The position numbers were made by a program, and so were the translations under genes. Below, one piece after another: positions 21,074 to 34,699 of a stretch of 64,000 bases of DNA (positions are counted from its first letter, which is position 1; each line of letters opens with the position of its first letter). The stretch comes from Bacillus sp. F19. Lineage in GTDB: Bacteria > Bacillota > Bacilli > Bacillales > Bacillaceae. The DNA lies in NCBI GenBank assembly GCA_023823795.1, contig CP085710.1, forward strand, positions 1,886,001 through 1,950,000. Reading direction: 5' to 3'. The notes beneath the pieces were generated by a model. That model had not been told where the DNA came from and did not search any database. It worked only from the letters and a program-made list of their open reading frames with translations.

Positions 21074-21103
21074 TTGTCTTTTTTGCCAGTTACATATTAT
21101 GAT
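21074..21103 (+). promoter_or_regulatory. Promoter of the acyl-CoA cluster
   Basis: TTGTCT (21074-21079), 18-bp spacer, TATGAT (21098-21103). Confidence 0.55.
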
Positions 21104-21118
21104 AGAAGCAGCTTTACA

Positions 21119-21134
21119 TACCAACCGGTTAGTA
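21119..21134. promoter_or_regulatory. TetR-type operator 1 (acyl-CoA dehydrogenase promoter)
   Basis: TACCAACCGGTTAGTA is a 16-bp near-perfect palindrome with an ACCGGT centre, 15 bp after the -10. The same motif recurs at 24185-24200. Likely target of the TetR regulator at 23581-24144. Confidence 0.7.
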
Positions 21135-21157
21135 AGTTATTAGAAAGGGTGATTTAG

Positions 21158-22384
21158 TTGAACTTTACTTACTCAGATAAAGTGATTGACTTACAAAAAC
21201 AAGCAGCATCTTTTATGGAAGAATTCGTTTATCCAAATGAGAAAAAGTACGAAGAACAATTAAATGCGCAGGAATCCAGATGGTCTGAGATTCCGGCCAT
21301 AATGGAAGAGCTGAAAACCAAGGCAAAGAAAAGAGGATTATGGAATTTATTTTTGCCTGAGAGCGAGTACGGGGCAGGACTTACAAATTTAGAATATGCT
21401 CCGCTTTGTGAAATTATGGGACGCTCATTGCTTGCACCTGAAGTGTTTAACTGTGCAGCACCTGATACAGGAAACATGGAGGTACTTGTGCGCTACGGCA
21501 CAGAAGAACAAAAAGAGAAATGGCTGAAGCCTCTGCTTGCCGGAGAAATCCGTTCATGCTTTTCCATGACTGAGCCTGATGTTGCCTCAGCAGATGCGAC
21601 GAATATTGGAGCAAGCATCATCCGGGACGGGGATGAGTATGTCATTAACGGAAGAAAATGGTGGTCTTCAGGAGCCGGCGATCCCCGCTGCAAGATTGCA
21701 ATTGTGATGGGAAAATCCAATTTTCAAGCCCCTAAATATGAACAGCAGTCGATGATTTTAGTGCCGCTTGATGCTGAAGGCGTCAAGATTGAAAGAGTGC
21801 TGCCTGTTTTCGGCTACGATCACGCTCCTCACGGTCATGCTGAAATTACATTTGATAACGTAAGGGTGCCGGTTTCTAATATGCTGCTCGGAGAAGGAAG
21901 AGGATTTGAAATTGCCCAGGGCCGACTTGGACCAGGAAGAATGCATCACTGCATGAGATTGATCGGGGCTGCAGAACGAGCTCTTGAGGAATTGTGTAAG
22001 CGTGTACAAACCAGAGAGGCGTTTGGCAAACCGATTTCAAGCCAGGGTGTCATCAGAGAATGGATCGCAGACTCCCGCATCGAAATTGAGCAGGCGCGCT
22101 TGCTTACTTTAAAAGCCGCCTACATGATGGATACGGTCGGAAATAAAGCGGCTAAAACGGAAATCGCGATGATTAAAGTCATTGCTCCGAATATGGCACT
22201 GAAAGTAATCGACAGGGCCATTCAGGCATTTGGTGCTGCTGGAGTCAGCGAAGATACTCCGCTTGCTGCTCAATGGGCAAGTGCAAGAACCTTGAGAATC
22301 GCTGACGGACCGGATGAAGTGCATCGTGCTCAGCTGGCAAGGCTTGAGCTGAAAAAATACGATGTGAATATGCAGACAGTATAA
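21158..22384 (+). CDS. ACAD10/11-type acyl-CoA dehydrogenase
   Basis: FAD flavoprotein of 408 residues with the usual acyl-CoA dehydrogenase fold. The block [20 protein letters not shown] and the tail [19 protein letters not shown] are those of mammalian ACAD10/ACAD11 and bacterial LvaC-like proteins, not of ordinary fatty-acyl dehydrogenases. Where MCAD has its catalytic Glu in YEGT, this protein reads ADGP by eye. In known systems this subgroup works on 4-phosphoacyl-CoA made by a partner kinase; such a kinase is encoded at 26329-27387. Start TTG 21158 follows AAAGGGTGAT. First gene of the cluster, behind operator 1. Confidence 0.85.
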
Positions 22385-22395
22385 GGAGGGGTAGT

Positions 22396-23172
22396 ATGCA
22401 TGTGAAAGAAATGTTTGATCTGACAGATAAAGTAGCTATCATCACGGGCGGAGGACGAGGACTTGGCGAGCAGATGGCTGAGGGATTTGCACAGGCAGGC
22501 GCATCTCTTGTCCTCTGTTCCAGAAAAGCCGCAGCCTGTGAAGATGCAGCTGCCCGTTTAAGCAGGGAGTATGGAGTAAAAGCCATCGCTTTATCATGTG
22601 ATGTGACAAACAGTGAAGATGTAAAAAATGTTGTAAAAACTACAATCGAAAAGTATGGAAAGATTGATATTTTAGTCAATAACAGCGGAGCAACATGGGG
22701 CGCGCCTGTTCAGGAAATGCCGCTTGAAGCGTGGAATAAAGTTATGAATGTGAATGTTACCGGCACATTTCTAATGTCCCAGGAAGCCGGCAAACAAATG
22801 ATCAAGCAAAAGAGCGGGAAAATCATTAATATCGCCTCTGTTGCAGGACTTGGCGGAACAGACCCTCGCTATATGGATACCATTGCCTACAACACAAGCA
22901 AGGGCGCTGTCATCACTTTTACAAAGGACCTGGCTGTGAAGTGGGGACAGTACAACATTAATGTTAATGCCATTGCACCCGGTTTTTTTCCTACTAAAAT
23001 GTCTCAGGTGATCATAGAAAACGGGAGAGATCATTTCCTGAATATCACACCGCTTAAACGATTCGGAACAGATCAGGATTTAAAAGGCGCTGCCCTGTTT
23101 TTGGCGGCAAGAGCTTCTGATTTTATCACAGGTGATGTTCTTGTCGTAGACGGCGGAACACATGCCATGTAA
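22396..23172 (+). CDS. SDR family oxidoreductase
   Basis: 258 residues of a classical short-chain dehydrogenase: GGGRGLGEQMAEGFA cofactor motif (TGGGRGLG), NNSGATWG, the Ser of NIASVAG, the YNTSK catalytic Tyr/Lys and IAPGFFPTKMS. Likely NAD(P)-dependent oxidation or reduction of a hydroxyacyl/ketoacyl intermediate. It starts 12 nt after the dehydrogenase with AAGGAGGGG, so it is co-transcribed. LvaD of the P. putida levulinate pathway is also an SDR, but the direct role is unproven. Confidence 0.85.
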   Translation: MHVKEMFDLTDKVAIITGGGRGLGEQMAEGFAQAGASLVLCSRKAAACEDAAARLSREYGVKAIALSCDVTNSEDVKNVVKTTIEKYGKIDILVNNSGATWGAPVQEMPLEAWNKVMNVNVTGTFLMSQEAGKQMIKQKSGKIINIASVAGLGGTDPRYMDTIAYNTSKGAVITFTKDLAVKWGQYNINVNAIAPGFFPTKMSQVIIENGRDHFLNITPLKRFGTDQDLKGAALFLAARASDFITGDVLVVDGGTHAM

Positions 23173-23188
23173 GAAAGGGGGAAGTTAA

Positions 23189-23540
23189 ATGAATCGTGAT
23201 CCGGTCATCGCAGCTGCCGTCAGAACCCCAATTGGGAGACAGGGCGGTGCACTTTCATCAATAGAAGCCAATGAATTTGGGGCAATTGTAATAAAAGAGG
23301 CAATGAACAGAGCAAAGGTATCAGCAGACATGATCGATGATGTCATTTTTGGAAATGTCCTCTAAGGCGGAGAAAATATTGCAAGATTAACAGCCTTGTC
23401 CACCGGACTATCACTGGATATACCGGGGCTGACAGTTGACCGTCAATGCTGCTCAGGGATTAATGCTGTGAATCTAGCAGCACAGGCGATCAAAGCAGGT
23501 GATGGTGATATCTATATGCAAGGGGGCACTAGGGCTTATG
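23189..23540 (+). pseudogene. Thiolase (acetyl-CoA acetyltransferase) remnant
   Basis: A frame from ATG 23189, with ribosome site AAAGGGGG, encodes the N-terminus of a thiolase: VIAAAVRTPIGRQGGALS, DDVIFGNVL, then DRQCCSGINAVNLAAQAI with the nucleophilic Cys. Codon 59 is TAA (23363-23365), one base from CAA, and after DGDIYMQGG near residue 115 the homology ends. About 270 C-terminal residues with the other active-site groups are gone, apparently by deletion up to the TetR promoter. No functional enzyme. Confidence 0.88.
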
Positions 23541-23547
23541 GTATAAT
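23536..23547 (+). promoter_or_regulatory. TetR gene promoter, extended -10
   Basis: TTATGG followed by TATAAT (23542-23547) forms an extended -10. It sits exactly at the deletion joint of the thiolase remnant. Confidence 0.5.
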
Positions 23548-23580
23548 CTCTTTAATCTAGGCTAGAGAGGATTAGGCATA

Positions 23581-24144
23581 ATGAAAGAAAAAATCATACA
23601 GCAAAGCATACAGCTATTCGGAGAAAAAGGATTTAAAGAAACATCCATACAGGATATTGTTGACAGCCTGAGTGTAACTAAAGGCACCTTTTATTATTAC
23701 TACAAAAGCAAAACAGAGCTGTTAATGGCGATTCACTTAAAGTACATTGACGATCTTCTGCGAAAACAGGAAGAAATCATCCGGGATAATGATAAAATGT
23801 ACAAAGATAAACTGCATGAAATTGTTTATATGCTGATTCATGACATCGAAAAAGAAGGATTAAGCGCGAAGGTCTTCTTCAGGGAAATGAGAAATTTAAG
23901 TGAAGAGGATATGGCGGAAGTAGTAGCCAAAAGAGATCTTTTCAGAGTGAAGATTCAGCAGGTTATTGAAGCGGGAATTGCTGCCGGAGAATTCCGTTCA
24001 GATCTCCCGATAGATATTGTCACATTCGGGATATTGGGCATGACGAACTGGAGTTACTTCTGGTTTGATCCGAACGGCCGTGTATCTGATCGTGAAGTAT
24101 CGGGAATTTTTCTGAAAATGGTGCTTGAAGGACTAAATATGTAA
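23581..24144 (+). CDS. TetR family transcriptional regulator
   Basis: 187 residues. The N-terminal helix-turn-helix is clear (LFGEKGFKETSIQDIVDSL then VTKGTFYYYYKSKTELL). The C-terminal ligand domain resembles FadR-like regulators that sense acyl-CoA. It is embedded in the acyl-CoA cluster and two identical-type palindromes (21119, 24185) flank it, so it most likely represses this cluster until an acyl-CoA intermediate is bound. The ligand is not known. Confidence 0.85.
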   Translation: MKEKIIQQSIQLFGEKGFKETSIQDIVDSLSVTKGTFYYYYKSKTELLMAIHLKYIDDLLRKQEEIIRDNDKMYKDKLHEIVYMLIHDIEKEGLSAKVFFREMRNLSEEDMAEVVAKRDLFRVKIQQVIEAGIAAGEFRSDLPIDIVTFGILGMTNWSYFWFDPNGRVSDREVSGIFLKMVLEGLNM

Positions 24145-24184
24145 AGGGATTTTCGGGAGACCGGGAATTTCTTCGCCTGAAACA

Positions 24185-24200
24185 TACCGACTGGTTAGTA
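24185..24200. promoter_or_regulatory. TetR-type operator 2 (hydroxyacyl-CoA dehydrogenase promoter)
   Basis: TACCGACTGGTTAGTA matches operator 1 at 14 of 16 positions and is preceded by the same ACA. It lies 20 bp before the start codon at 24221. Confidence 0.7.
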
Positions 24201-24220
24201 GTCATTGAGGGAGGATAATC

Positions 24221-25098
24221 ATGAAAAAAGAGGACATTCAGCAAATTTCGGTCATTGGAGCAGGACAAATGGGACATCAAATAGCTATGCTGTGCGCGCT
24301 TGGCGGCTATGAAACCATCCTTCAGGATGTTCAGGAAACCGCCTTGGAAAAAGCCGAGTCGACCTTGCATTCCATCATGGATAAATGGGTGAAAAAAGCT
24401 GACAGAAGAAGCGAAACAGGCTGCTTTTGCAAGACTGAAATTCACATCTTCACTTGAGCGGGCAGCAAGTCATGCAGATTTTATTATTGAAGCTGTAGTA
24501 GAGAGACTGGATGTGAAGAGGGAACTCTTTGCAAGGCTTGATCAGCTTGCGAAGCCTCATGCTATTTTCGCTTCAAACAGCTCAACGATTGTCAATTCTC
24601 TGATCGCATCAGCGACAAATCGGGAAGACAAAGTCGTGAACATGCATTTCTTTTTCCCTCCGCTTGTCATGGATTGTGTAGAGGTTGTTATGAGTGAGCA
24701 GACTTCAGGTGAAACTGCCGAGTTAACAATGGAAGTCTGCAAAATAATCAACCGCACCTGTGCTTTTGAAGAAAGAAATTTCAGGATTTATCGCCAATCG
24801 CATTTTAGGAGCACTACAAAGGGAAGCGGTTTTCCTATATGAAGAGGGATATGCAAGTTATGAAGATATTGACATTATTTGCCGCAAAGCCTTAAACCAT
24901 CCAATCGGTCCGTTTGAATTAATGGACTTATCCGGCATAGATGTTGGCTATTACGTTATGCAGCAGCGGTTTGCAGAGTCGGGAGATCCTGCAGATAAAC
25001 CGTTTGCCTGCATTGAGCAAAAGGTAAGGCAAGGCGAGCTTGGCAGAAAAACGGGCAAAGGCTGGTACGAGTATCAAAAAGAAGAGGTGAAAATATGA
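24221..25098 (+). pseudogene. 3-hydroxyacyl-CoA dehydrogenase, two frameshifts
   Basis: Three consecutive frames together make one HADH-type enzyme. The first carries the NAD motif VIGAGQMGHQIA; the second SNSSTIVNSLIA and HFFFPPLVMDCVEVV; the third KKEISGFIANRILGAL and NHPIGPFELMDLSG to the stop at 25098. Breaks lie in the A-run near 24397 and near 24763. In full it would be about 290 residues. Either a recent pseudogene or sequence errors; resequencing would tell. The following crotonase overlaps its stop by 4 nt. Confidence 0.82.
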
Positions 25099-25877
25099 TG
25101 AATTCTGTGGTCACTTCAGAAAAAAATGGATCAATTGCGATTGTCACAATTAACAATCCTCCTTTGAACGTCATGAATCAGCAAGTAACTAGGGAACTGA
25201 AAGAATGCTTTCGGGCTTTGAAAGAGGACAGTGAGGTTGTCGCCGTTATTTTAACAGGTGCGGGCGAGCGGGCTTTCATGGCCGGAGCAGATATTAAGGA
25301 ATTTCCGCAGCTGATCGGGAAAAAAGGCATCAAAGCAAATTTCCTTGAAGGACACGCATTTTTAAATGAAATTGATCAGTTTCCAAAGCCTACAATCGCT
25401 GTTTTAAACGGGGTAACGTTTGGAGGCGGATGTGAGCTTGCGTTAACATGTGATCTTAGAATTGCAGAAGAGCATGCTCAAATAGGGCTCCCTGAAATTA
25501 AGCTTGGTTTATTCCCGGGCGGAGGCGGAACGCAAAGACTGCCAAGAATTGTGGGCGATGCAAAAGCAAAAGAATTGATGTTCACTGGCGACCCAATTGA
25601 GGCAGAAGAAGCGAAAAGGTTAGGGCTTGTATCCTATGTTGTTTCTAAAGGGGAAGGACTTCAAAAAGCGCTGGAGCTTGCAAACCGCATCAGCCGTCAT
25701 TCTCTGCCTGCTCTCTCAAAAATTAAGAAAGCAGTCGATCAAGGTTTAAACAGCACTCTGGAGGAAGGTCTTGACCTTGAAGCCGGTTTGTTTGAAGAGG
25801 TGTTTCAGACAGAAGATATTAAAGAAGGCGTACAGGCTTTTATTGAAAAAAGAAAACCAGCGTTCAGCCATAAATAA
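25095..25877 (+). CDS. Enoyl-CoA hydratase (crotonase family)
   Basis: 260 residues. The oxyanion-hole segments AFMAGADIKEF and GGGCELALTCD are present, as is the catalytic Glu in LPEIKLGLFPGGGGTQRLPR, so hydratase activity on trans-2-enoyl-CoA is expected. Its ATG overlaps the stop of the preceding hydroxyacyl-CoA dehydrogenase frame (ATGA), which implies translational coupling. It keeps an intact frame although both neighbours are broken. Confidence 0.88.
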   Translation: MMNSVVTSEKNGSIAIVTINNPPLNVMNQQVTRELKECFRALKEDSEVVAVILTGAGERAFMAGADIKEFPQLIGKKGIKANFLEGHAFLNEIDQFPKPTIAVLNGVTFGGGCELALTCDLRIAEEHAQIGLPEIKLGLFPGGGGTQRLPRIVGDAKAKELMFTGDPIEAEEAKRLGLVSYVVSKGEGLQKALELANRISRHSLPALSKIKKAVDQGLNSTLEEGLDLEAGLFEEVFQTEDIKEGVQAFIEKRKPAFSHK

Positions 25878-25894
25878 GGCGATGGGGGTGATCC

Positions 25895-26304
25895 ATGCAC
25901 GAAGCAAAAATGAGAGTGCGATTTTGTGAGACAGATGCGCAGGGTCATGTGAATAATACAAGCTACTTTATCTATTTAGAGGATACGCGCGTTCAATTTT
26001 TTGAAGCTCTTGGCTATACAATGACTTCTGGAGACTGGCCATTTATATTAGCACGCGCAACATGTGATTTCCGCGGTCAGGCTTATTTTAACAATCATTT
26101 AATTATTAAAACCGCAGTTCAGAAAATCGGCTCAAAAAAAGCTTCACTGTTTCCCATGAAATCACTGAAGAGCAATCGGGACGACTAATTGCAAAAGGAG
26201 AAGCTGTTATTGTAACATTCAATTTTAAGACACAGGAATCGGAATGGATGTCTGAAGAGCTTAAAGATCAATTGAAGAGGTTTGCTGCGGAAGTAAAAAT
26301 CTGA
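25895..26304 (+). pseudogene. 4HBT-type acyl-CoA thioesterase, one frameshift
   Basis: Frame 1 starts MHEAKMRVRFCETDAQGHVN with the hotdog-fold thioesterase motif (catalytic Asp in ETDAQGHVNN) and YLEDTRVQFFEALG. In the run of seven A after KIGS the frame is lost; in the next frame SFTVSHEITEEQSGRLIAKG continues to LKRFAAEVKI and a stop at 26302-26304. One extra A would restore a normal protein of about 136 residues. Homopolymer slippage or sequencing error are both possible. Confidence 0.8.
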
Positions 26305-26328
26305 ATATTTAAATAAAGGGGTGATACG

Positions 26329-27387
26329 ATGTCTCAAATTATACCTGTCCAAACCGGGGAAGAACTCAATGCCCAGATTCTAGAAGAGTGTTTACGAGCA
26401 GAAATCCCTTCACTTCCTGCTGGTACATTACATATTGAACAATTTGGGACCGGCGCTTCAAATTTAACCTATGCCCTGAGAATAGGAGAGTGGGAGGCTG
26501 TTTTAAGACGGCCGCCGCTCGGACCAGTGGCGCCTAAAGCTCATGATATGGAGAGAGAGTATAAAATCCTGAAAGATCTGAATCCTCTCTTTCCACTAGC
26601 TCCAAAGCCATATTTTTTCAGCGGTGATGATTCCGTGACAGGCAGTACGTTCTTTGTAATGGAAAGACGGCACGGTTTTCTCGTCGATACAGAACTGCCT
26701 GAAAATAGTGAATGTACGGTTGAAATAGGCCATTCTCTTTCCGAAGTCATGGTTGATACGCTTGTAAAGCTTCATGATGTTCCTTACAAAGGAACGGCGC
26801 TCGAAACATTAAGCAAGCCTGAGGGATTCATGGAAAGGCAGGTGCACGGATGGATTGGCAGATATCACAAGGCAAAAACAGACAAAATCTTTGAAATTGA
26901 GCTGCTGACAAAGTGGCTGCAGGCGAATTTGCCCGTTTCAGGAGAGCCAGCTGTCATTCATTATGACTTTAAATTCAATAATGCCTTGTTCTCTCAAAAT
27001 CTGAAAGAAATGACGGGATTGTTTGACTGGGAGATGACAACGATCGGAGATCCGCTTGCAGACCTTGGCGCTGCCATGAGCTACTGGATGGAGAAGGATG
27101 ATCCTGAGTCTCTTAAAAAAGGAATGGGCAAACCTTCAATCACAACAAGCGGGAAGTTCTATACAAGAGATCAGTTTATAGAGAGCTATGCGAGGAAAAG
27201 CGGAAGAGATGTTACAAATATTCACTATTACACAACATTCGCAACGTTTAAACTGGCGGTAATTTGTCAGCAAATCTACTATCGCTACAAAAAAGGCCAG
27301 ACTAATGATCAGCGTTTTGCCCGCTTTGGGCCATTTACGCAAATCCTCATTCAGCATGCCCTTCGCATGGCACATAAGGAGTCATGA
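26329..27387 (+). CDS. ACAD10/11-type phosphotransferase (APH-fold kinase)
   Basis: 352 residues of the aminoglycoside-phosphotransferase fold but of the acyl-CoA branch: FGTGASNLTYAL, VLRRPPLGPVAPKAHDMERE, then the catalytic loop HYDFKFNN (Asp and Asn kept, Gly replaced by Tyr) and LFDWEMTTIGDPLADLG with the metal Asp. It matches the N-terminal kinase domain of mammalian ACAD10/11 and resembles LvaA, which phosphorylates 4-hydroxyacyl-CoA. Here kinase and dehydrogenase are separate genes. The stop overlaps the start of the phosphatase gene. Confidence 0.82.
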   Translation: MSQIIPVQTGEELNAQILEECLRAEIPSLPAGTLHIEQFGTGASNLTYALRIGEWEAVLRRPPLGPVAPKAHDMEREYKILKDLNPLFPLAPKPYFFSGDDSVTGSTFFVMERRHGFLVDTELPENSECTVEIGHSLSEVMVDTLVKLHDVPYKGTALETLSKPEGFMERQVHGWIGRYHKAKTDKIFEIELLTKWLQANLPVSGEPAVIHYDFKFNNALFSQNLKEMTGLFDWEMTTIGDPLADLGAAMSYWMEKDDPESLKKGMGKPSITTSGKFYTRDQFIESYARKSGRDVTNIHYYTTFATFKLAVICQQIYYRYKKGQTNDQRFARFGPFTQILIQHALRMAHKES

Positions 27388-28127
27388 TGGGGAAAATTCA
27401 TGTTATTACAAGAAAAGAAGAGATTGATTCTGTAAAAATGGAAAACAAAATTGCTGTTGTCTTCGACGTTCTGCTTGCAACATCAGCTATTACAACTGTT
27501 CTGCATCACGGTGCCCTATCAGTTATTCCTGTACTGGATGGGCAGCAAGCAAATGAACGTGCCAAACGGTTAAACAAGGATGAATACATTCTCGTGGGTG
27601 AGTATGAAGGGAAGACCATCGAAGGGTTTCTTGATCCGAATCCGTCTACACTTAAGGATGCTGCAGCCGGAAAAAAGGTGATTCTATCGACAACAAACGG
27701 CACGGTTGCTGTTCATAAAAGCAGCTCAGGTCTTAGGGTATTTGCATGTTCATTATTAAATGCACGGGCTGTCTCAGAAAAATTGATAGCTGAAAATGCG
27801 AATGAAACGATTGTAATTGTCTGTTCGGGGTCGTCCGGTCATTTTAGTTTAGAAGATTTCTATGGTGCGGGATATTTGATTGAGCTGCTGACCTCTCTGG
27901 CTGACTGGGATTTAAGCGACTCCGCAAGAACAGCCAAATTATTTTACGAAGGCAATCGCGAGGATCCAGTTCAAGTGCTTTCTCAGTCAAGGGTAGGAAA
28001 AATGCTTTTGAGATACGGTTTTGGAGAGGAAATTCAGTTTATCAGCAGGCGCAGCTGTTTTGATGTTGTCCCAATCCTTAAGGGGGATGGGCTTGTGAAC
28101 ATCGGGAAGGCCATAACCAGCATCTGA
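27384..28127 (+). CDS. ComB-family (2-phosphosulfolactate phosphatase-like) protein
   Basis: 247 residues with the ComB signatures AVVFDVLLATSAITTVLHHG, GEYEGKTIEGFLDPNPS and LSTTNGTVAVH. Known members dephosphorylate 2-phosphosulfolactate (coenzyme M pathway; YitC for spore sulfolactate in Bacillus). Its ATG overlaps the kinase stop by 4 nt, which suggests a function tied to a phosphorylated intermediate of this cluster, not necessarily sulfolactate. The substrate is unknown. Confidence 0.75.
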   Translation: MMGKIHVITRKEEIDSVKMENKIAVVFDVLLATSAITTVLHHGALSVIPVLDGQQANERAKRLNKDEYILVGEYEGKTIEGFLDPNPSTLKDAAAGKKVILSTTNGTVAVHKSSSGLRVFACSLLNARAVSEKLIAENANETIVIVCSGSSGHFSLEDFYGAGYLIELLTSLADWDLSDSARTAKLFYEGNREDPVQVLSQSRVGKMLLRYGFGEEIQFISRRSCFDVVPILKGDGLVNIGKAITSI

Positions 28128-28152
28128 ACAATCTGGGAAAGGAAGTGAATAC

Positions 28153-28917
28153 ATGAGATTTCAGCAGCAAATCGCCGTCGTAACAGGTGCCGGAAGCGGC
28201 ATCGGCAAAGAAACGGCAAGAAGACTTACCTTAGAAGGTGCCAAAGTGATTTTGGTTGGCAGAAATGAGAAGAAATTAACATCAGCAGCTGAAGAGCTGA
28301 ACCGGGAAGAAAAAGCGGCATTTCCTTTCACAGCTGATGTGACGAAGGAAGAAGATGCAGCTTCTCTACTTACTTATGTAAAAGAAGAATTCGGGAATTT
28401 GCATGTGCTTGTGAATAATGCAGGAGGGTCTGTTCATTCGAGAATTATGGATACTACTTCTGATCAGTGGGATTTCGTCCAAAATGTGAATTTGAAAAGT
28501 GTCTTTCTTATTTCTAAAGCACTTGGAGGCTATATGGCAGAAAAAAGTGCGGTTCAGTCTGAGTGCAGGGCCATAGTGAATGTAGCTTCTCTCTCTGGCT
28601 ATAAAGCGGGAGCAGAAATTCCGCATTACAGCTCAGCAAAAGCAGCTGTGATCAATTTTACGAGAGCGCTCGCCTATGAGTTTGCCCCTCACGGAATAAG
28701 AGTCAACTCGGTCTCACCAGGATTTATTGAAACACCTCTTACTGAAAAAGGTCTCCAAAATGAGAGATTTACACAAGCCATTAAAAGGAATACAGCGCTA
28801 AAGCGTGTAGGAAGACCCGAGGAAATTGCAAACATTATTGCGTTTGCCGCTTCACACGAGGCGTCTTATATGACTGGCTCCGATTTGCTTGCAGACGGCG
28901 GCTGGCTGATTACATAA
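28153..28917 (+). CDS. SDR family oxidoreductase
   Basis: 254 residues: cofactor motif VTGAGSGIGKETARRL, NNAGGSVHS, active-site Ser in NVASLSGY, Tyr/Lys in YSSAKAAV and VSPGFIETPL. NAD(P)H enzyme of the FabG-like group, probably acting on a hydroxy- or keto-acyl-CoA. Ribosome site AAAGGAAG. Co-directional with the genes before and after, 25 nt from the ComB-like gene. Confidence 0.85.
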   Translation: MRFQQQIAVVTGAGSGIGKETARRLTLEGAKVILVGRNEKKLTSAAEELNREEKAAFPFTADVTKEEDAASLLTYVKEEFGNLHVLVNNAGGSVHSRIMDTTSDQWDFVQNVNLKSVFLISKALGGYMAEKSAVQSECRAIVNVASLSGYKAGAEIPHYSSAKAAVINFTRALAYEFAPHGIRVNSVSPGFIETPLTEKGLQNERFTQAIKRNTALKRVGRPEEIANIIAFAASHEASYMTGSDLLADGGWLIT

Positions 28918-28934
28918 ATTTTTAAGGAGGAATT

Positions 28935-29711
28935 ATGATGAGTGATTTATTGACAGAAAAAAATGGGCATGTCCTGTTTTTAACGTTAAACAGGCCTGAA
29001 AGATTGAATGCATTCAGTGCCGATATGATTCTTGCCCTGACAAATGAATTAAATAATGCTAAACAGGATGACAGCGTGAGGGTTGTTGTATTAAGCGGAT
29101 CCGGAAGGTCATTCAGTGCCGGAGGAGATGTGAAAACAATGGGTGAAGCAGACGGCAAGCAAGTATATGATCATATTGGACGCCTGAACGGATGCATCAA
29201 AGCTTTTAAGGAATTAGACAAACCGATTATCGCAGCTGTGCATGGATTTGCAGCAGGAGCTGCCTTTAATCTGGCCCTCGCATGCGATCAGATCCTGGCT
29301 GCGGAAGACAGCAAATTTGTCATGAGCTTTTCGCAGGTAGGGCTCATTTCAGATGGAGGCGGTTTGTACTTTCTTCCACGCATCATCGGTCCCTATAAAG
29401 CAAAGCAGTTATTTTTCAACGCAGAGCCAATCACTGCAAACCAGGCGCTTGAATACGGCATCGTAAATAAAGTTGTCCCTTTAGAACAGCTGAAAGATGA
29501 AGCTGTATCTTATGCTCATAAGCTATCGCAAGGTCCGGTCAAAGCGTACGGGATGATGAAAAAAATCATTAACTCCTCAGCTGTTTCAACACTTGAAGAG
29601 ATTTTGGAGCAAGAACGGATTGTCCAGACACTGATGATTTCAACGGAGGATCATCAGGAAGGCATCCATGCATTTAAAGAAAAACGCAAGCCAGTCTTTC
29701 AAGGGAAGTGA
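28935..29711 (+). CDS. Crotonase-family protein, probably enoyl-CoA isomerase-like
   Basis: 258 residues with the oxyanion-hole segments SFSAGGDVKTM and HGFAAGAAFNLALACD. The hydratase Glu of the PEIKLG motif is absent: the aligned stretch reads MSFSQVGLISDGGGLYFLPR, with Asp in SDGGG as in PaaG-like and delta3-delta2-enoyl-CoA isomerases. An isomerase role therefore seems more likely than hydration. AAGGAGG precedes the ATG. The stop overlaps the next gene region. Confidence 0.82.
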   Translation: MMSDLLTEKNGHVLFLTLNRPERLNAFSADMILALTNELNNAKQDDSVRVVVLSGSGRSFSAGGDVKTMGEADGKQVYDHIGRLNGCIKAFKELDKPIIAAVHGFAAGAAFNLALACDQILAAEDSKFVMSFSQVGLISDGGGLYFLPRIIGPYKAKQLFFNAEPITANQALEYGIVNKVVPLEQLKDEAVSYAHKLSQGPVKAYGMMKKIINSSAVSTLEEILEQERIVQTLMISTEDHQEGIHAFKEKRKPVFQGK

Positions 29712-29716
29712 TGATG

Positions 29717-30703
29717 ATGATGAGAGCGATCCAATTAGTAGAATACGGCGGTCCAGAGGTTTTAAAAGTGGTGGAAATGGAAGTTCCGGAGCCTGCAGCA
29801 AAGGAAGTTTTAATTAAAATAGAAGCAATCGGCGTTAACTATGCAGATACAGCGAGGAGGGAAGGACAATATGTGATTGATACACCTCTCCCGTTTGTTC
29901 CGGGTGCAGAGGTGGCGGGAACGGTTGAGGAAATCGGCAGTGATGTCACCCGCTTTAAAAAAGGAGATAAAGTCGTCACACTTCTTGGATCCAGCCGAGC
30001 GACAGGCTATGCGGAGTTCACTGTAGCTGAAGAAAAGGGATTAATTCCTGTTCCAGACGGTGTGGATGTTAAACAAGCGGTGTCGCTTCCTCTTCAAGGG
30101 CTCAGTGCTTATCATATTTTAAAAACAATGGGGCGGATTGAACAGGGAGAAATCGTTCTGATTCATGCAGCTGCAGGTGGAGTTGGGACAATTGCCGTAC
30201 AGCTTGCAAAGCTATTTGGAGCATCTAAAGTCATCGCAACGGCGAGCACACCTGAAAAAAGAAGCCTTGCCATTGAAATGGGTGCAGACGAAACGGTTGA
30301 TTATACTCAAGAAGGCTGGGAAAAGGAAGTTCTTCATCTGACTGGAGGAAAAGGTGTAGATGTAGCCCTTGAAATGGCTGGAGGCGATGTTTTCAGAAAA
30401 ACATTATCTTGCATGGCGCCGTTTGGCCGTCTTGTGATCTATGGAGTGGCGAGCGGTGAACAATCACGGCTATACCCTTCTTCACTCATGGCACAAAATC
30501 TGTCAGTCATCGGGTTTTTCCTTCCGCAGATTATGAGAAAGAAAGAGTTATATTTACGAAGTCTGTCAGATCTGCTCGGCTATCTTCAAAATGGAGAGTT
30601 AAAGCTGACAATCGGGGGCGTCTATCCTTTGGAAAGTGCGAAAGAAGTACATGAGATGCTCCAGGGAAGACAAACAAAAGGGAAACTGATTTTAGTTCCC
30701 TAA
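29717..30703 (+). CDS. Quinone oxidoreductase-like NADPH dehydrogenase (zinc-free MDR)
   Basis: About 330 residues of the medium-chain dehydrogenase family: GVNYADTARREG, PFVPGAEVAGTVEEIG, nucleotide motif AAAGGVGTIAVQLAK and a C-terminal EVHEMLQGRQTKGKLIL. No structural zinc cysteines are seen, as in quinone oxidoreductase/crotonyl-CoA reductase-like members; it probably reduces an enone or enoyl thioester. Four ATG codons in a row follow a GTG at 29708, so the exact start is uncertain. A terminator closes this transcript. Confidence 0.78.
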   Translation: MMRAIQLVEYGGPEVLKVVEMEVPEPAAKEVLIKIEAIGVNYADTARREGQYVIDTPLPFVPGAEVAGTVEEIGSDVTRFKKGDKVVTLLGSSRATGYAEFTVAEEKGLIPVPDGVDVKQAVSLPLQGLSAYHILKTMGRIEQGEIVLIHAAAGGVGTIAVQLAKLFGASKVIATASTPEKRSLAIEMGADETVDYTQEGWEKEVLHLTGGKGVDVALEMAGGDVFRKTLSCMAPFGRLVIYGVASGEQSRLYPSSLMAQNLSVIGFFLPQIMRKKELYLRSLSDLLGYLQNGELKLTIGGVYPLESAKEVHEMLQGRQTKGKLILVP

Positions 30704-30798
30704 AATCATTAAAATCTGCAAATCCTTCTACTTAATCCGCCTATGTGCTGAAACCCGTCGAAGATGGAAAGCTTGTCAATATCAAAAAATAACAGCTG

Positions 30799-30831
30799 GA
30801 GTTTCCCGGTTATCTTTAGGGAAACTCTATT
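30799..30831 (+). terminator. Terminator after the oxidoreductase gene
   Basis: GAGTTTCCC and GGGAAACTC pair, followed by TATTTC, a weak T-run. Confidence 0.6.
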
Positions 30832-30907
30832 TCATTGCCTAGATCAGAAATTTTTAAAAATAGTTTAATTAGAAAAAGGTATTTATCAGAAAAGTTAGAA
30901 ATTAAAC

Positions 30908-30921
30908 TGTAAGCGTTACCA
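30908..30921. promoter_or_regulatory. cre site (CcpA) before the acyl-CoA ligase gene
   Basis: TGTAAGCGTTACCA matches the cre consensus TGWAANCGNTNWCA in all but one position. It sits 26 bp before the start codon, so CcpA would block initiation or elongation and place the ligase gene under glucose repression. Confidence 0.6.
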
Positions 30922-30946
30922 ATAAAGGGGAAGAGGTGTGATAACG

Positions 30947-32620
30947 ATGATTCAATCTCATTTTGAACATTGGCCGGTAAGAGTGCCGTATACGTTAACA
31001 GTTCCCGAAACGACGCTTTATGACAATCTGGAAATTTCGGCGAGGAGATACCCTGAAAAAACAGCGGTTTATTATTATGGTGCAGAAATTACATACAGGC
31101 ATTTAATGCGTGAGGTTGATTCGCTTGCAGGGTTTCTGGAAAATAAATTATCCGTTGCCAAGGGAGAAAAAGTCCTGTTATTTGTACAAAATTCCCCTCA
31201 GTTTGTCATCGGTTATTATGCCATTCTGAGAGCGGGCGGGGTTGTTGTTCCGATAAATCCTATGAATACGGCAGAGGAACTCAGGTTTTATATTCATGAC
31301 TGTCAGATGAAGACAGGTATTATTGGACAGGAGCTTTACGAACGAATACAGCCTGTTTTTGATTCGACCACACTGAAAAATGTTATTGTCGCTGCTTACT
31401 CTGATTATCTTTCTCAAGATTCTCTGAATGAGGACATCCCGGAAGAGGTAAAAAAAGGAGCGATAGAGCTTTTAAATCATGATCATATGAACTGGAAAGA
31501 TGCTGTGCAGGGATTATTTGCACCTTCTGAAATGGCTTCTCTTGCAGATGATCTGGCTGTTTTGCCTTACACTTCCGGGACAACCGGACTGCCAAAAGGA
31601 TGCATGCATACGCATCGGACAGTTCAGGCTAATACGTTTGGAGGCTATCATTGGCTGAACGCTGCTTCTGACGCGATCTGCTTAGCAACTTTGCCTCTTT
31701 TTCATGTGACAGGAATGGTTCACAGCATGCATATACCTATTCTATCAGGAGCAACGGTCGTGATGATGACTAGATGGGATAGGGAATATGCAAGAAAAAT
31801 CATTCACGATTTAAGAGTGACACACTGGATTAACATCAGCACGATGCTGATTGACTTTTTGGCAAATCCCGCGCTTGTAAAGGAAGATATGACATCCTTG
31901 ATGAACCTTGCCGGAGGAGGAGCAGCTCTCCCTGCGGCTGTAGGAGAAAAGCTGTATAAAATGACCGGTCTCAAATTTATTGAAGGATATGGGCTGTCAG
32001 AGACAATTGCCCAGACTCACTTCAATCCGCCTGATCGTTCTAAGCTCCAATGTCTTGGTATTCCATCGTTTGATGTGGATGCAAGAGTAATCGATCCAGT
32101 TCATCTAACGGAGCTTGGAACAGGTCAGGAAGGAGAGATAGTTGTTTCCGGCCCGCAGATTTTCCTCGGCTATTATAATCGCGAACTGGAAAATGAAAAG
32201 TCTTTTATTGATATTGAGGGCAAAAAGTTCTTCAGAACAGGTGATATCGGCAAACGTGATGAGGAGGGGTATTACTTCATTGTGGACCGTGTCAAACGGA
32301 TGATCAACGCATCAGGATTCAAAGTGTGGCCGACGGAGATTGAAGGTGTCCTGTATCAGCATCCAGCTGTCCAGCAGGCATGCGTCGTAGGAGTACCTGA
32401 TAAAAGACGGGGTGAAACTGTAAAAGCATTTATCATATTAAATAAAGAGTTTGAAGGTGAAATTGATGCAGAGGAAATCGTGAACTGGGCAAAAGAAAAA
32501 ATGGCGGCTTATAAATATCCAAGACTCATTGAATTCAGAAAAAGCCTGCCAATGACATCAAGCGGAAAACTGCTGTGGAGAAAGCTCCAGGAAGAAGAAA
32601 AACAAAAGGTTTTGGGGTGA
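30947..32620 (+). CDS. AMP-forming acyl-CoA ligase
   Basis: 557 residues of the ANL superfamily that activate a carboxylic acid with ATP and CoA. Visible are the P-loop PYTSGTTGLPKG, the motif GYGLSETIAQTH, the YFRTGD-type region FFRTGDIGKRDEEGYYFIVD and the C-terminal PMTSSGKLLWRKL with the catalytic Lys. ATG 30947 lies 8 nt after GAGGTG; a GTG nine bases earlier overlaps that site. Candidate for loading the opened hydroxy acid onto CoA. Starts a second transcript, 5 nt ahead of the lactonase-like gene. Confidence 0.87.
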   Translation: MIQSHFEHWPVRVPYTLTVPETTLYDNLEISARRYPEKTAVYYYGAEITYRHLMREVDSLAGFLENKLSVAKGEKVLLFVQNSPQFVIGYYAILRAGGVVVPINPMNTAEELRFYIHDCQMKTGIIGQELYERIQPVFDSTTLKNVIVAAYSDYLSQDSLNEDIPEEVKKGAIELLNHDHMNWKDAVQGLFAPSEMASLADDLAVLPYTSGTTGLPKGCMHTHRTVQANTFGGYHWLNAASDAICLATLPLFHVTGMVHSMHIPILSGATVVMMTRWDREYARKIIHDLRVTHWINISTMLIDFLANPALVKEDMTSLMNLAGGGAALPAAVGEKLYKMTGLKFIEGYGLSETIAQTHFNPPDRSKLQCLGIPSFDVDARVIDPVHLTELGTGQEGEIVVSGPQIFLGYYNRELENEKSFIDIEGKKFFRTGDIGKRDEEGYYFIVDRVKRMINASGFKVWPTEIEGVLYQHPAVQQACVVGVPDKRRGETVKAFIILNKEFEGEIDAEEIVNWAKEKMAAYKYPRLIEFRKSLPMTSSGKLLWRKLQEEEKQKVLG

Positions 32621-32624
32621 GAGA

Positions 32625-33626
32625 ATGAAACATATGGTTGAAACAGTTACTGGGCCAATAGCAGCCGATCAGCTTGGCAAAACACTAATTCATGAACATT
32701 TTGTATTTGGCTATCCCGGATTCCACGGTGATGACTCTCTTTTGGGATTTGATGAACAGGATGCTCTTGAGACAGGGATTACCATTGCCCTTCAGCTCTT
32801 GAGCTTCGGGGTTGACACGGTGGTCGATCCAACCCCGAATGAATGCGGCAGAAACCCTGAACTATTAAAGGAAATCTCTGAACGTACAGGACTGCAAATT
32901 GTGTGCGCAACAGGTTTTTATTATGAGGGAGAAGGTGCAGCTCCTTTTTTAAAATTCAGGCAGGGACTCGGTACAGCTGAAGAAGAAATATATGAAATGT
33001 TTAAGAAGGAAATAACAGAAGGAATCAGGAATACCGGAATAAAGCCAGGTATTATTAAGCTTGCTTCAAGAAAAGGTGTCATTACCGAATATGAACGAAT
33101 GTTCTTTAAAGCCGCTGCAAGGGTACACTTGGAGGAAGGCACGGTCATCCTGACGCATACACAAGAAGGAACAATGGGGCCTGATCAAGTGGAATTATTG
33201 ATTGATCTTGGATGTGATCCTAAAAAAATAGTGATTGGCCACATGTGCGGCAATACGGATACAGATTATCATGAGAAGGTTTTGGAAAAAGGAGTATTCA
33301 TCGCATTTGACAGGTTTGGCATACAGGGCATGGGAGGGGCTCCGAACGATAACGAAAGAATAAGAACCCTTATCAAATTAGTATCCCTTGGCTACACAAA
33401 TCAAATCATGCTGTCTCATGACACGGTTAATCATTGGATGGGACGGCCGTTAATTCTGCCTGAGGTGATACAGGGAAAAATGAAAAACTGGCATCCTGTT
33501 CACCTTTTTGAAAATATTATCCCTGAGCTTCGGGAACAGGGGATGCCTGAAGAAAACATCCGAACAATGCTTGAAACCAATCCGTCAAGACTGTTTTTTC
33601 ATCAGGAAGCTAAAATCAATTCTTAA
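32625..33626 (+). CDS. Phosphotriesterase-like lactonase/hydrolase
   Basis: 333 residues of the phosphotriesterase family (binuclear metal amidohydrolase). His23 and His25 lie in LIHEHFVF, the bridging Lys in GIIKLAS, and the other ligands in ILTHTQEG, IVIGHMCGN and the Asp of MLSHDT. Family members with a known reaction in Bacillus relatives hydrolyse lactones (acyl-homoserine lactones, gamma- and delta-lactones). It starts 5 nt after the acyl-CoA ligase stop, so lactone opening and CoA activation appear coupled. A terminator follows. Confidence 0.82.
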   Translation: MKHMVETVTGPIAADQLGKTLIHEHFVFGYPGFHGDDSLLGFDEQDALETGITIALQLLSFGVDTVVDPTPNECGRNPELLKEISERTGLQIVCATGFYYEGEGAAPFLKFRQGLGTAEEEIYEMFKKEITEGIRNTGIKPGIIKLASRKGVITEYERMFFKAAARVHLEEGTVILTHTQEGTMGPDQVELLIDLGCDPKKIVIGHMCGNTDTDYHEKVLEKGVFIAFDRFGIQGMGGAPNDNERIRTLIKLVSLGYTNQIMLSHDTVNHWMGRPLILPEVIQGKMKNWHPVHLFENIIPELREQGMPEENIRTMLETNPSRLFFHQEAKINS

Positions 33627-33633
33627 TTTTTTG

Positions 33634-33657
33634 AGGCAGCCAGAGCTGCCTTTTTTT
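33634..33657 (+). terminator. Terminator after the lactonase-like gene
   Basis: AGGCAGC and GCTGCCT around CAGA, then seven T. Confidence 0.9.
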
Positions 33658-33742
33658 ATTGCCTTTAAAAAAGGAGTTGAAACAGAAAAAGAGAATTTGA
33701 ATAACACAAGGGATTTCTGCATCAAAGAAAGGGGATTTTTAA

Positions 33743-34699
33743 ATGGAATGGAAGACTAGAATTACAGAGCTTTTAAACATTCAATACCCAATTATTCAGG
33801 GAGGACTTGCATACCTTGCATATTCTGATTTGGCAGCTGCTGTATCAAACGCTGGCGGACTGGGCCAAATAACAGCGATGTCTCTTGGGGAACCTGAACT
33901 GCTTCGGGAAGAGATTGCAAAAGTCCGCAAAAAAACAGATAAGCCGTTTGGTTTGAATTTTGCGGTAGGCCAGCACGGAAGACCATTCTCAGATCTGCTG
34001 GATGTGGCAATTGAAGAAAAAGTACCTGTCATTTCTATGACAGGAGGCAATCCTTCCGCTATCTTTCATCAATTAAAAGGGGCAAACGTAAAAAAGCTTG
34101 TTCTGGTGGCTGCCAGAAGGCAAGCTGAAAAAGCAGAAGAACTTGGAGCAGATGCTGTTATGGTTGTAGGACAAGAAGGAGGAGGCCACCTTGGAAGAGA
34201 TGACACCGGAACGTTCGTTTTAATACCTCAAGTGGTTGATTCTGTGTCCATTCCTGTTATTGCATCCGGAGGAATTGGTGACGGCAGAGGATTGATGGCT
34301 GCACTCAGTCTCGGAGCAGAAGGAATTGAAATGGGAACGAGGTTTATTGCTACACAGGAATGTGTACATGCGCATTCAGAATACAAACATGCCCTTGTAA
34401 ACAGTTCAGAACGGGATACTGTTGTCATTAAACGCAGTATTGGAGCGCCGGCTAGAGCACTAGCGGGACCTTGGACAGCTAAAATATTGGAGATGGAGCA
34501 AAAACAAGCTGATTATGAGCAGCTAAAAGATTATATTAGCGGCCATGCTAACAAAAGATACATATATGATGGTATGATAGACAATGGTTTTGCGTGGGCT
34601 GGACAAGTTACAGGCTTAATCCGCGACGTACCGAGCGTTGAACAGCTTCTCTCGAGGATGATAGCTGAGGCCAGCGAGATAAGACAAAGATGGACTTAA
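33743..34699 (+). CDS. FMN-dependent nitronate monooxygenase / FabK-like oxidoreductase
   Basis: 318 residues of the NMO/2-nitropropane dioxygenase TIM-barrel family: IQYPIIQGGLAYLA, VGQEGGGHLGRDD and IASGGIGDGRG bind FMN phosphate. The family includes nitronate monooxygenases and the enoyl-ACP reductase FabK, and the sequence does not decide between them by eye. AAAGGGGA precedes the ATG. It is the last gene of the accessory cluster. No terminator separates it from yktA, so readthrough into yktA is likely. Confidence 0.8.
   Translation: MEWKTRITELLNIQYPIIQGGLAYLAYSDLAAAVSNAGGLGQITAMSLGEPELLREEIAKVRKKTDKPFGLNFAVGQHGRPFSDLLDVAIEEKVPVISMTGGNPSAIFHQLKGANVKKLVLVAARRQAEKAEELGADAVMVVGQEGGGHLGRDDTGTFVLIPQVVDSVSIPVIASGGIGDGRGLMAALSLGAEGIEMGTRFIATQECVHAHSEYKHALVNSSERDTVVIKRSIGAPARALAGPWTAKILEMEQKQADYEQLKDYISGHANKRYIYDGMIDNGFAWAGQVTGLIRDVPSVEQLLSRMIAEASEIRQRWT

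Follow-up and report, generated by a model that had tools for sequence, protein, structure and literature searches.

Between positions 21158 and 34699 of the window (the whole stretch of 64,000 nucleotides that was analysed, from Bacillus sp. F19, a genome that is Metabacillus-like), genes for an acyl-CoA dehydrogenase (ACAD), an APH-fold kinase, an acyl-CoA ligase and a lactonase are found together with SDR, crotonase and TetR genes (Table 1). The cluster genes listed in an earlier note on this DNA are all open and belong to the families it gave them, as seen from their reading frames and Pfam matches, and the ligase and lactonase genes, which it placed side by side, are separated by 4 bp. 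It had passed over the gene of a ComB-like protein, the broken genes of a 3-hydroxyacyl-CoA dehydrogenase (HADH) and of a thioesterase, and deletions specific to this strain. Twelve of the 13 query proteins of the cluster are recovered in unchanged order, at 72-97% protein identity, in three near loci (L032, 'Bacillus sp. PAMC26568'; L033, labelled Peribacillus frigoritolerans; L034, Metabacillus idriensis), the NMO-like protein at the far end being the only one outside the conserved order; additional genes are interspersed among the ordered matches in all three. Because this order is kept and because kinase and ACAD occur in the identical set of 22 of the 81 family genomes, the association of these genes goes beyond chance.

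Table 1. Genes and other features of the cluster (positions in the window).
Feature	Position	Strand	Remarks
Putative palindromic operator, ATACCAACCGGTTAGTA	21118..21134	+	23 bp 5' of ACAD start
ACAD11-type acyl-CoA dehydrogenase, proposed 4-phosphoacyl-CoA eliminase	21158..22384	+	PF00441/02770/02771
SDR oxidoreductase 1 (SDR1)	22396..23172	+	Proposed 4-oxo/4-hydroxyacyl-CoA reductase; LvaD-like solely by position
Thiolase gene, 5' remnant	23189..23530	+	Comparison with sister genome
TetR-family regulator	23581..24144	+	PF00440, PF17932
Putative second operator copy	24184..24200	+	Precedes HADH gene
HADH gene, broken	24221..25098	+	Two small deletions giving two frameshifts; intact in relatives
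Enoyl-CoA hydratase 1	25095..25877	+	PF00378
4HBT_2 thioesterase gene, frameshifted	25895..26304	+	Intact in relatives
APH-fold kinase, proposed 4-hydroxyacyl-CoA kinase	26329..27387	+	PF01636, E 1.8e-38
ComB-like phosphatase homologue	27384..28127	+	PF04029; start overlaps kinase gene by 4 bp
SDR oxidoreductase 2	28153..28917	+	Profile match
Enoyl-CoA hydratase 2	28935..29711	+	PF00378
Quinone oxidoreductase-like protein	29708..30703	+	Top NCBIfam match PIG3 family, under model cut-off
Deletion site, about 4.6 kb absent relative to sister genome	30704..30937	+	Liv-type ABC transporter, five genes in relatives
Acyl-CoA ligase	30938..32620	+	PF00501; PRK08314 subfamily, above NCBIfam cut-off
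Phosphotriesterase-like lactonase, close to GkaP	32625..33626	+	PF02126, E 1.4e-56
Nitronate monooxygenase (NMO)/FabK-like flavoprotein, far end of cluster	33743..34699	+	NCBIfam/Pfam profile matches

The same palindrome precedes both halves of the cluster, the ACAD unit and the second unit. The motif, which was derived from inverted repeats, is expected by chance zero times (100 shuffles). A symmetric form of it lies 10-110 bp 5' of the ACAD gene in 42 of 64 loci, while none was found at that place in the other 22, and over all 80 loci the forward sites number 107, against nine in a control read backward. The cluster is probably under the control of its own TetR regulator. An operator of the FadR type, in its Bacillus form, was dropped as a candidate, since its two matches, each with three mismatches, are at chance level. 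Promoter-like sites are at the level of shuffled sequence and terminator-like sites about one standard deviation above it, and neither kind was taken as evidence.

The ACAD of the window is far closer to human ACAD11 (2wbi; E 8.4e-141 with phmmer) than to the best ordinary ACAD (9.2e-41). The available text of PMC12440821 gives R626, H634, R637 and D753 as the marker residues of 4-phosphoacyl-CoA eliminases, and all four are kept here, as R256, H264, R267 and D383, with R, H and R on one helix and the catalytic Asp in place of Glu. All 96 aligned rows with at least 50% identity have the complete set, against six of 81 rows below that value, near-duplicate rows being retained and gapped rows removed. 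In a tree made by a quick method, rooted at the midpoint and with a long branch for the human row, a group of 32 rows (SH-aLRT 97) holds the window ACAD together with human ACAD11, apart from ordinary ACADs. The assignment to the ACAD10/11 type made earlier is borne out by this grouping and by the four residues, and the predicted reaction is removal of phosphate from 4-phosphoacyl-CoA, with no need of an external electron acceptor. One long frame in a myxobacterial contig had raised the suspicion of a kinase-ACAD fusion, which was rejected, as the two lie in different frames.

The kinase matches 9o56 (E 1.1e-139) and, at a greater distance, mouse ACAD11 (E 7.5e-38). Both the catalytic Asp and the Mg-binding Asp motifs of the APH family are present, the former (D213) being kept in 146 of 147 rows, the remaining one being truncated. 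In the kinase tree, which had no outgroup, was made by a quick method and drew long-branch warnings, a supported branch (97) parts ACAD11, 3dxp, a Sulfuritalea-type kinase and three plasmid kinases from the window kinase, which groups among those of Bacillales; like the ACAD tree, it was built without the LvaA and LvaC sequences. The ACAD10/11 label given to the kinase earlier therefore holds for homology, fold and catalytic Asp, but the supported branch sets the protein apart from the ACAD11 kinase.

The lactonase matches 3orw (E 4.1e-139, phmmer) and has all its binuclear metal ligands (H23, H25, K145, H178, H206 and D266) and, with the PLL Tyr kept, Y99, R230 and W271; all of these residues are shared with GkaP of Geobacillus kaustophilus. 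Its distribution is uneven. A match of at least 60% is found in 16 of the 22 kinase genomes, against none of the 59 others; it was not found in the remaining six, lies far from the kinase in three genomes, and, when 40 additional ComB genomes were searched, gave no match in 31. Lactones would therefore be at most one entry into the pathway. One of the 16, in G048, is in two pieces and apparently broken.

The ComB-like protein is a clear member of PF04029 (217 bits, cut-off 26.4), with a match to 1VR0 (E 2.1e-35) and a predicted structure of high confidence (pLDDT 93.6), and stays under the cut-off in all eight NCBIfam models that it matched (TIGR00298, for example, 101 of 175 bits). It has its family in common with the 2-phosphosulfolactate phosphatases ComB (1VR0, 2YYV, 2Z0J), yet differs from them in motifs, grouping and setting, here one of acyl-CoA catabolism. 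The Arg of the DxxRA motif is present in 13 of 13 rows taken as canonical ComB but missing from every kinase-linked row shown, where Leu, Ile, Met or Phe replaces it and the NSP motif is lost. In the ComB tree 27 Arg-less rows lie together across one branch from canonical ComB, with a support (92/89) below the star limit. A role as a marker of sulfolactate metabolism was set aside on the lost motifs, the separate grouping and the gene context. Across 24 Arg-less members there is no variation at D28, G72-E73, TTNGT (103-107) or E157-D158, which suggests that the active site works. The gene lies immediately 3' of the kinase in 58 of 80 ComB loci. Of the 22 kinase genomes 19 possess it; it was not found in the other three, and none is listed beside the kinase at the kinase locus of Cytobacillus spongiae. 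In ten of 17 kinase loci viewed, the slot beside the kinase is occupied by a histidine phosphatase.

These families, residues and gene neighbours give good support to the inference, which we consider probable, that this catabolic cluster channels gamma-lactones and 4-hydroxy (perhaps 4-oxo) fatty acids to beta-oxidation, the ComB-like protein clearing stray phosphoesters. The lactonase would open the lactone ring and the ligase form 4-hydroxyacyl-CoA, SDR1 interconverting 4-oxo and 4-hydroxy forms; the kinase would then make 4-phosphoacyl-CoA, from which the ACAD11-type enzyme would eliminate phosphate to yield 2-enoyl-CoA, and the hydratases, with HADH and thiolase in relatives, would complete beta-oxidation. 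Produced together with the kinase, the ComB-like protein would dephosphorylate stray phosphoesters, either free 4-phospho-acids left after loss of the thioester or phosphoacyl-CoAs that the ACAD refuses. The route from lactone to 4-phosphoacyl-CoA put forward earlier thus retains families for four steps and the catalytic residues of lactonase, kinase and ACAD; the grouping of the kinase with that of ACAD11 is the part that did not stand.

The substrate could be another hydroxylated or branched acid, for example delta-lactone derived or isoprenoid, the kinase then phosphorylating a hydroxyacyl-CoA with its hydroxyl elsewhere than at position 4. The frequent lack of the lactonase and the separate branch of the kinase are in line with this, and the Liv-type transporter of relatives, the two crotonases and the quinone oxidoreductase may suggest a substrate of greater complexity. 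In the available part of PMC4338136, moreover, GkaP, with 7.3e4 /s/M on gamma-decalactone, favours delta-decanolactone about 14-fold, and this weighs against the main reading as well, since a 5-hydroxyacyl-CoA would have no need of a kinase. Still, all four eliminase residues are retained, and cells with ACAD10 phosphorylated 4-hydroxyhexanoate and not 5- or 6-hydroxyhexanoate, according to the available sections of PMC12440821 and PMC11342911; we find this alternative rather improbable. Less probable again is a lactonase for quorum quenching or detoxification that is a mere neighbour of the pathway. The phosphotriesterase-like QsdA of Rhodococcus does cleave acyl-homoserine lactones as well as gamma-caprolactone, but it also supplies a catabolic ligase (PMC6476934 and PMC6262395, in part), and the window lactonase directly follows the ligase gene, its close homologues within the family being limited to genomes that have the kinase.

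It is also worth asking whether the ComB-like protein is a phosphatase at all; it might instead bind the kinase or hold it in check, comparable to LvaB or the ACAD10 HAD domain. The loss of the canonical Arg and NSP motif and the overlap of the two genes would fit such a role, as would two precedents in the accessible parts of the reports: LvaB, of 12 kDa, interacts with LvaA (PMC6692424), and the HAD domain, whose phosphatase activity is negligible, acts as a brake that restrains the kinase without clear catalysis (PMC12440821, PMC11342911). We regard a purely non-catalytic role as unlikely, given the invariant residues and the occupation of the same slot by histidine phosphatases, an unrelated family. 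The HAD domain, for its part, is unrelated to the ComB family. It may well be, though we say so tentatively, that users of kinase-elimination chemistry have repeatedly enlisted phosphatases of unrelated families (histidine phosphatase, ComB-like protein and, in mammals, the HAD domain) as partners of the kinase in repair or control, a ComB relative having become in Bacillales a dedicated phosphatase of 4-phospho-acids or 4-phosphoacyl-CoA. In the available text, P. citronellolis has a histidine phosphatase in this very slot (PMC6692424), and free 4-phosphohexanoate is formed in cells possessing ACAD10 (PMC12440821, PMC11342911).

The cluster has been eroded in this strain. Compared with its sister genome, about 97% identical in nucleotides, where thiolase, second ligase, transporter and both frameshifted genes are intact, 3.3 kb is missing at the thiolase remnant, with the rest of thiolase, an SDR and the second ligase; the remainder of this strain's genome holds no near copy of these genes, nor were those of the transporter found there. 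Such losses, together with the frameshifts and the dN/dS of 0.42 of the lactonase, would agree with a cluster that has already ceased to function. We doubt that it has, since every core gene is open and dN/dS is 0.09-0.24 in the other ten of the 11 genes compared, although most of this divergence may have built up before the damage; enzymes of beta-oxidation from elsewhere may also stand in. On the core genes, all of them open, purifying selection seems to act.

Each half of the system has a known counterpart. As described in the available part of PMC6692424, the lva operon of P. putida KT2440 and P. citronellolis LA18T shares kinase, ACAD, SDR, CoA ligase and the 4-phosphoacyl-CoA route with the window, and in LA18T a gene of a phosphatase family adjoins the kinase; the window differs in having a ComB-like protein instead of histidine phosphatase or LvaB, and in its lactonase, TetR regulator and, in relatives, Liv-type transporter. 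The qsd genes of Rhodococcus erythropolis offer a TetR regulator, a phosphotriesterase-like lactonase and an acyl-CoA ligase for the assimilation of gamma-caprolactone, whereas the available sections of PMC6476934 and PMC6262395 describe them as qsdR, qsdA and qsdC, with no mention of kinase or ACAD. From mammalian ACAD10 and ACAD11, with which it shares a homologous kinase, the diagnostic ACAD residues and, in ACAD10, a phosphatase-superfamily domain, the window differs in that its proteins are separate and its kinase lies across the supported branch (PMC12440821, PMC11342911, in part). The claim that no such operon is known in Bacillus agrees with the literature searched, which left out most subscription papers and in which no linkage of lactonase, ligase, kinase and ACAD was found in Bacillus, but must be tempered, both halves being on record in Pseudomonas and Rhodococcus. 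A further difference from lva, on the host side, concerns the DUF6285 protein (PF19802), which we take to be the LvaB family: it was found in none of the 81 family genomes, with two of 14 control genomes positive.

If the proposed pathway is right, the newly described ACAD10/11 chemistry extends to Gram-positive Bacillales, where it is joined to lactone catabolism. The phosphatase-like partner of the kinase, common to ACAD10, P. citronellolis and the window, would become a testable hypothesis of metabolite repair, and the ComB-like subfamily would gain a function, its library name of 2-phosphosulfolactate phosphatase being probably misleading. GkaP was studied as an isolated enzyme, as far as the available part of PMC4338136 goes, whereas the window lactonase sits in a cluster. 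Homologues of GkaP co-occur, at the level of the genome, with kinase and ComB-like genes in four Geobacillus/Parageobacillus genomes.

The pairing of a lactonase with a ligase is already known from qsd, the Rhodococcus lactonase operon, and that of a kinase with an acyl-CoA dehydrogenase (ACAD) from the Pseudomonas lva operon and from ACAD10/11; the present cluster has both in common with them. What appears new here is the union of these two halves in Bacillales, together with a ComB-like partner of the kinase: neither was found in the literature searched, a coverage from which subscription papers were mostly absent. All the genes named in the earlier note were found, with the families it gave; the ComB-like gene (PF04029) that overlaps the kinase gene was overlooked there. 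The window spans bases 1886001-1950000 of contig 1 in a genome of 5.59 Mb, and the host genus is probably Metabacillus, because the nearest named ComB loci are those of 'Bacillus sp. PAMC26568', of a genome labelled Peribacillus frigoritolerans and of Metabacillus idriensis. The flavoprotein gene immediately 3' of the lactonase gene is present in the sister genome, G050, too.

Genes of the cluster, in window coordinates
Gene	Start	End
ACAD	21158	
SDR1	22396	
TetR	23581	
HADH (3-hydroxyacyl-CoA dehydrogenase), broken	24221	
Enoyl-CoA hydratase	25095	
Thioesterase, broken	25895	
Kinase	26329	
ComB-like	27384	
SDR2	28153	
Second hydratase	28935	
Quinone oxidoreductase	29708	
Ligase	30938	
Lactonase	32625	33626
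Nitronate-monooxygenase/FabK-like flavoprotein	33743	34699

The solved structures closest to the ACAD are 4hr3 (2.8e-144) and human ACAD11, 2wbi (8.4e-141), the top ordinary ACAD following at 9.2e-41. Residues R626, H634, R637 and D753 of mouse ACAD11 (one less in the numbering of the solved chain) are common to LvaC and are linked to phosphorylated substrates in PMC12440821. By alignment their counterparts are R256, H264, R267 and D383, conserved in 96 of 96 rows of at least 50% identity against 6 of 81 below 50%, rows gapped at these columns being left out and near-duplicates retained. A quick tree of 65 rows, rooted at midpoint and with the human row on a long branch, places the window ACAD and human ACAD11 in one 32-row group (support 97), separated from seven further ACADs encoded in the window's genome (support 100). 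For the kinase, the closest solved chain is 9o56 (1.1e-139), then mouse ACAD11 (7.5e-38), and D213 aligns with the catalytic Asp reported as D220 in that paper. A 60-row kinase tree, made by a quick method without outgroup, sets it among Bacillales kinases and 9o56 (support 98-99), while the ACAD11 kinase goes with 3dxp, Sulfuritalea-type and three plasmid kinases (support 97). Because of this grouping the window kinase is, judging by sequence, a homologue of the ACAD11 kinase yet set apart from it by supported branches. The ACAD10/11 label of the earlier note is thus borne out by phylogeny for the dehydrogenase and not for the kinase.

The top match of the lactonase is the Geobacillus enzyme GkaP (3orw, 4.1e-139), whose metal ligands H23, H25, K145, H178, H206 and D266 are all conserved, as are Y99, Y100, R230, W271 and P275. 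According to PMC4338136, GkaP acts on gamma-hexyl-gamma-butyrolactone (gamma-decalactone) at 7.3e4 /s/M, so that activity of the window enzyme on gamma-lactones is likely; the rate on delta-decanolactone is 9.9e5 /s/M, and a preference for delta-lactones is possible. Across 81 Bacillaceae genomes, the set of 22 that have the kinase (E up to 1e-40) is identical to the set that have the ACAD (E up to 1e-100). A lactonase of at least 60% identity accompanies them in 16 of these 22, including one that is in two pieces and apparently broken (G048), against none of the other 59, where matches reach 30-36% identity only; these counts ignore kinship. In G054, G058 and G068 one contig carries both lactonase and kinase, but at a great distance from each other, and co-occurrence is therefore more than linkage. 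Our sample of ComB loci comprised the best 80 of 164 confirmed relatives: the fetched stretch holds a lactonase in 13 of these 80 and a ligase of at least 45% in 27. Nine of 40 further genomes have the lactonase, in two just beyond the fetched stretch, provided contig C1 is the locus record. A second, divergent locus (L150) in G046, of the same genus, combines ligase, ACAD (69%), ComB-like protein (39%), kinase (42-44%), thiolase and an apparent TRAP-type transporter, and is apparently a paralogous system.

The ComB-like protein matches PF04029 (E 2.1e-64) and 1VR0 (2.1e-35), its AlphaFold model has a pLDDT of 93.6, and it scores under the cut-off of all eight NCBIfam ComB models matched. The Arg of the DxxRA motif occurs in all 13 rows that we treated as canonical (1VR0, 2YYV, 2Z0J, three further proteins from Bacillaceae and seven which we take to be YitC-like); in kinase-linked rows its place is taken by Leu, Ile, Met or Phe, and the NSP motif is missing. 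Arg-less rows fall on one side of a branch (support 92/89), and D28, E73, T103-T107, E157 and D158 are invariant across 24 Arg-less members. Among the same best 80 of 164, the kinase is present in 66 loci, immediately upstream of the ComB-like gene in 58; for the 14 loci without it, a search of 13 of their genomes found a homologous kinase elsewhere in 11 (L109, run as positive, was left out of the count, and L108 out of the search). A PF04029 gene is found in 19 of the 22 kinase-bearing family genomes. Arg-retaining ComB genes were seen in other Bacillaceae genomes (L112, L113, L117), one being a second locus of G050. An Arg-less ComB-like gene (L088, 10001-10720) and similar Sulfuritalea/Rhodocyclales loci belong to a thioesterase-ComB-ligase-hydratase cluster without adjoining kinase; eight of ten searched genomes of this type have an ACAD11-side kinase elsewhere.

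Canonical ComB acts on a small phosphorylated hydroxy-acid. As hydrolysis of 4-phosphoacyl-CoA would only reverse the kinase, the ComB-like protein is unlikely to be a straight pathway step; its most sensible use would be to recycle free 4-phospho-acids or poorly eliminated stereoisomers. Free 4-phosphohexanoate is produced in cells (PMC11342911), and the ACAD10 kinase favours R about fourfold. The main rival is a brake or partner of the kinase; PMC11342911 describes the ACAD10 HAD domain as holding the kinase back, with negligible phosphatase activity. Our best reason for believing that the position beside the kinase matters is the recurrence of phosphatases there. In 18 annotated regions, hand-picked and non-random among listed rows (40 of 123 and 40 of 246 records), 17 had an annotated kinase, and in nine of the 17 the gene after it encodes a histidine phosphatase (Deinococcus radiodurans, gobiensis, deserti and QL22, Azospirillum, Pseudoalteromonas, Rhodobacteraceae S2214, Streptomyces, Ideonella). 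It follows with one gene in between in Deinococcus NW-56, and none is listed adjoining the kinase in seven of the 17, the plasmid gene table being incomplete. Two such proteins were checked, both PF00300. In P. citronellolis, too, PMC6692424 places a histidine phosphatase beside the kinase, reports no lvaB found, and suggests that it removes phosphate from 4-phosphovaleryl-CoA. On the kinase tree, ComB neighbours amount to two changes and histidine-phosphatase neighbours to two; the second ComB case, a deltaproteobacterial locus (L109), adjoins the second histidine-phosphatase group.

An inverted-repeat scan revealed a palindrome 5' of the ACAD gene. The motif ACATACCRACYGGTTAGTA occurs with zero mismatches at 21116 and 24182 (0 expected, 100 shuffles), the former matching the opposite strand as well with 3 mismatches. 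Of 64 loci with an ACAD of at least 60% and with upstream sequence, 42 carry its symmetric form (at most 2 mismatches allowed) 10-110 bp 5' of the ACAD start and 22 do not; all 80 loci give 107 forward sites, against 9 when read backwards as a control. Loci such as L032-L035 have the second site between TetR and HADH; in L063 it is found 5' of the kinase. The cluster TetR would be the natural candidate to bind it.

The sister genome, about 97% identical, has the cluster complete. Compared with it, the window lacks two stretches, one of 3.3 kb at 23530 with most of a thiolase, an SDR and a second ligase, the other of about 4.6 kb at 30754 with a Liv-type transporter; indels have frameshifted HADH and the thioesterase. 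A search for the missing pieces elsewhere in the genome gave only short matches of 66-74%, plus one of 32 bases at 91%. This damage may be assembly error, but the large deletions and those in HADH are not of the homopolymer type. In a comparison with the sister genome that omitted HADH, thioesterase and quinone oxidoreductase, dN/dS is 0.09-0.24 in ten genes; that of the lactonase, 0.42, is above all ten and points to relaxed or changed selection.
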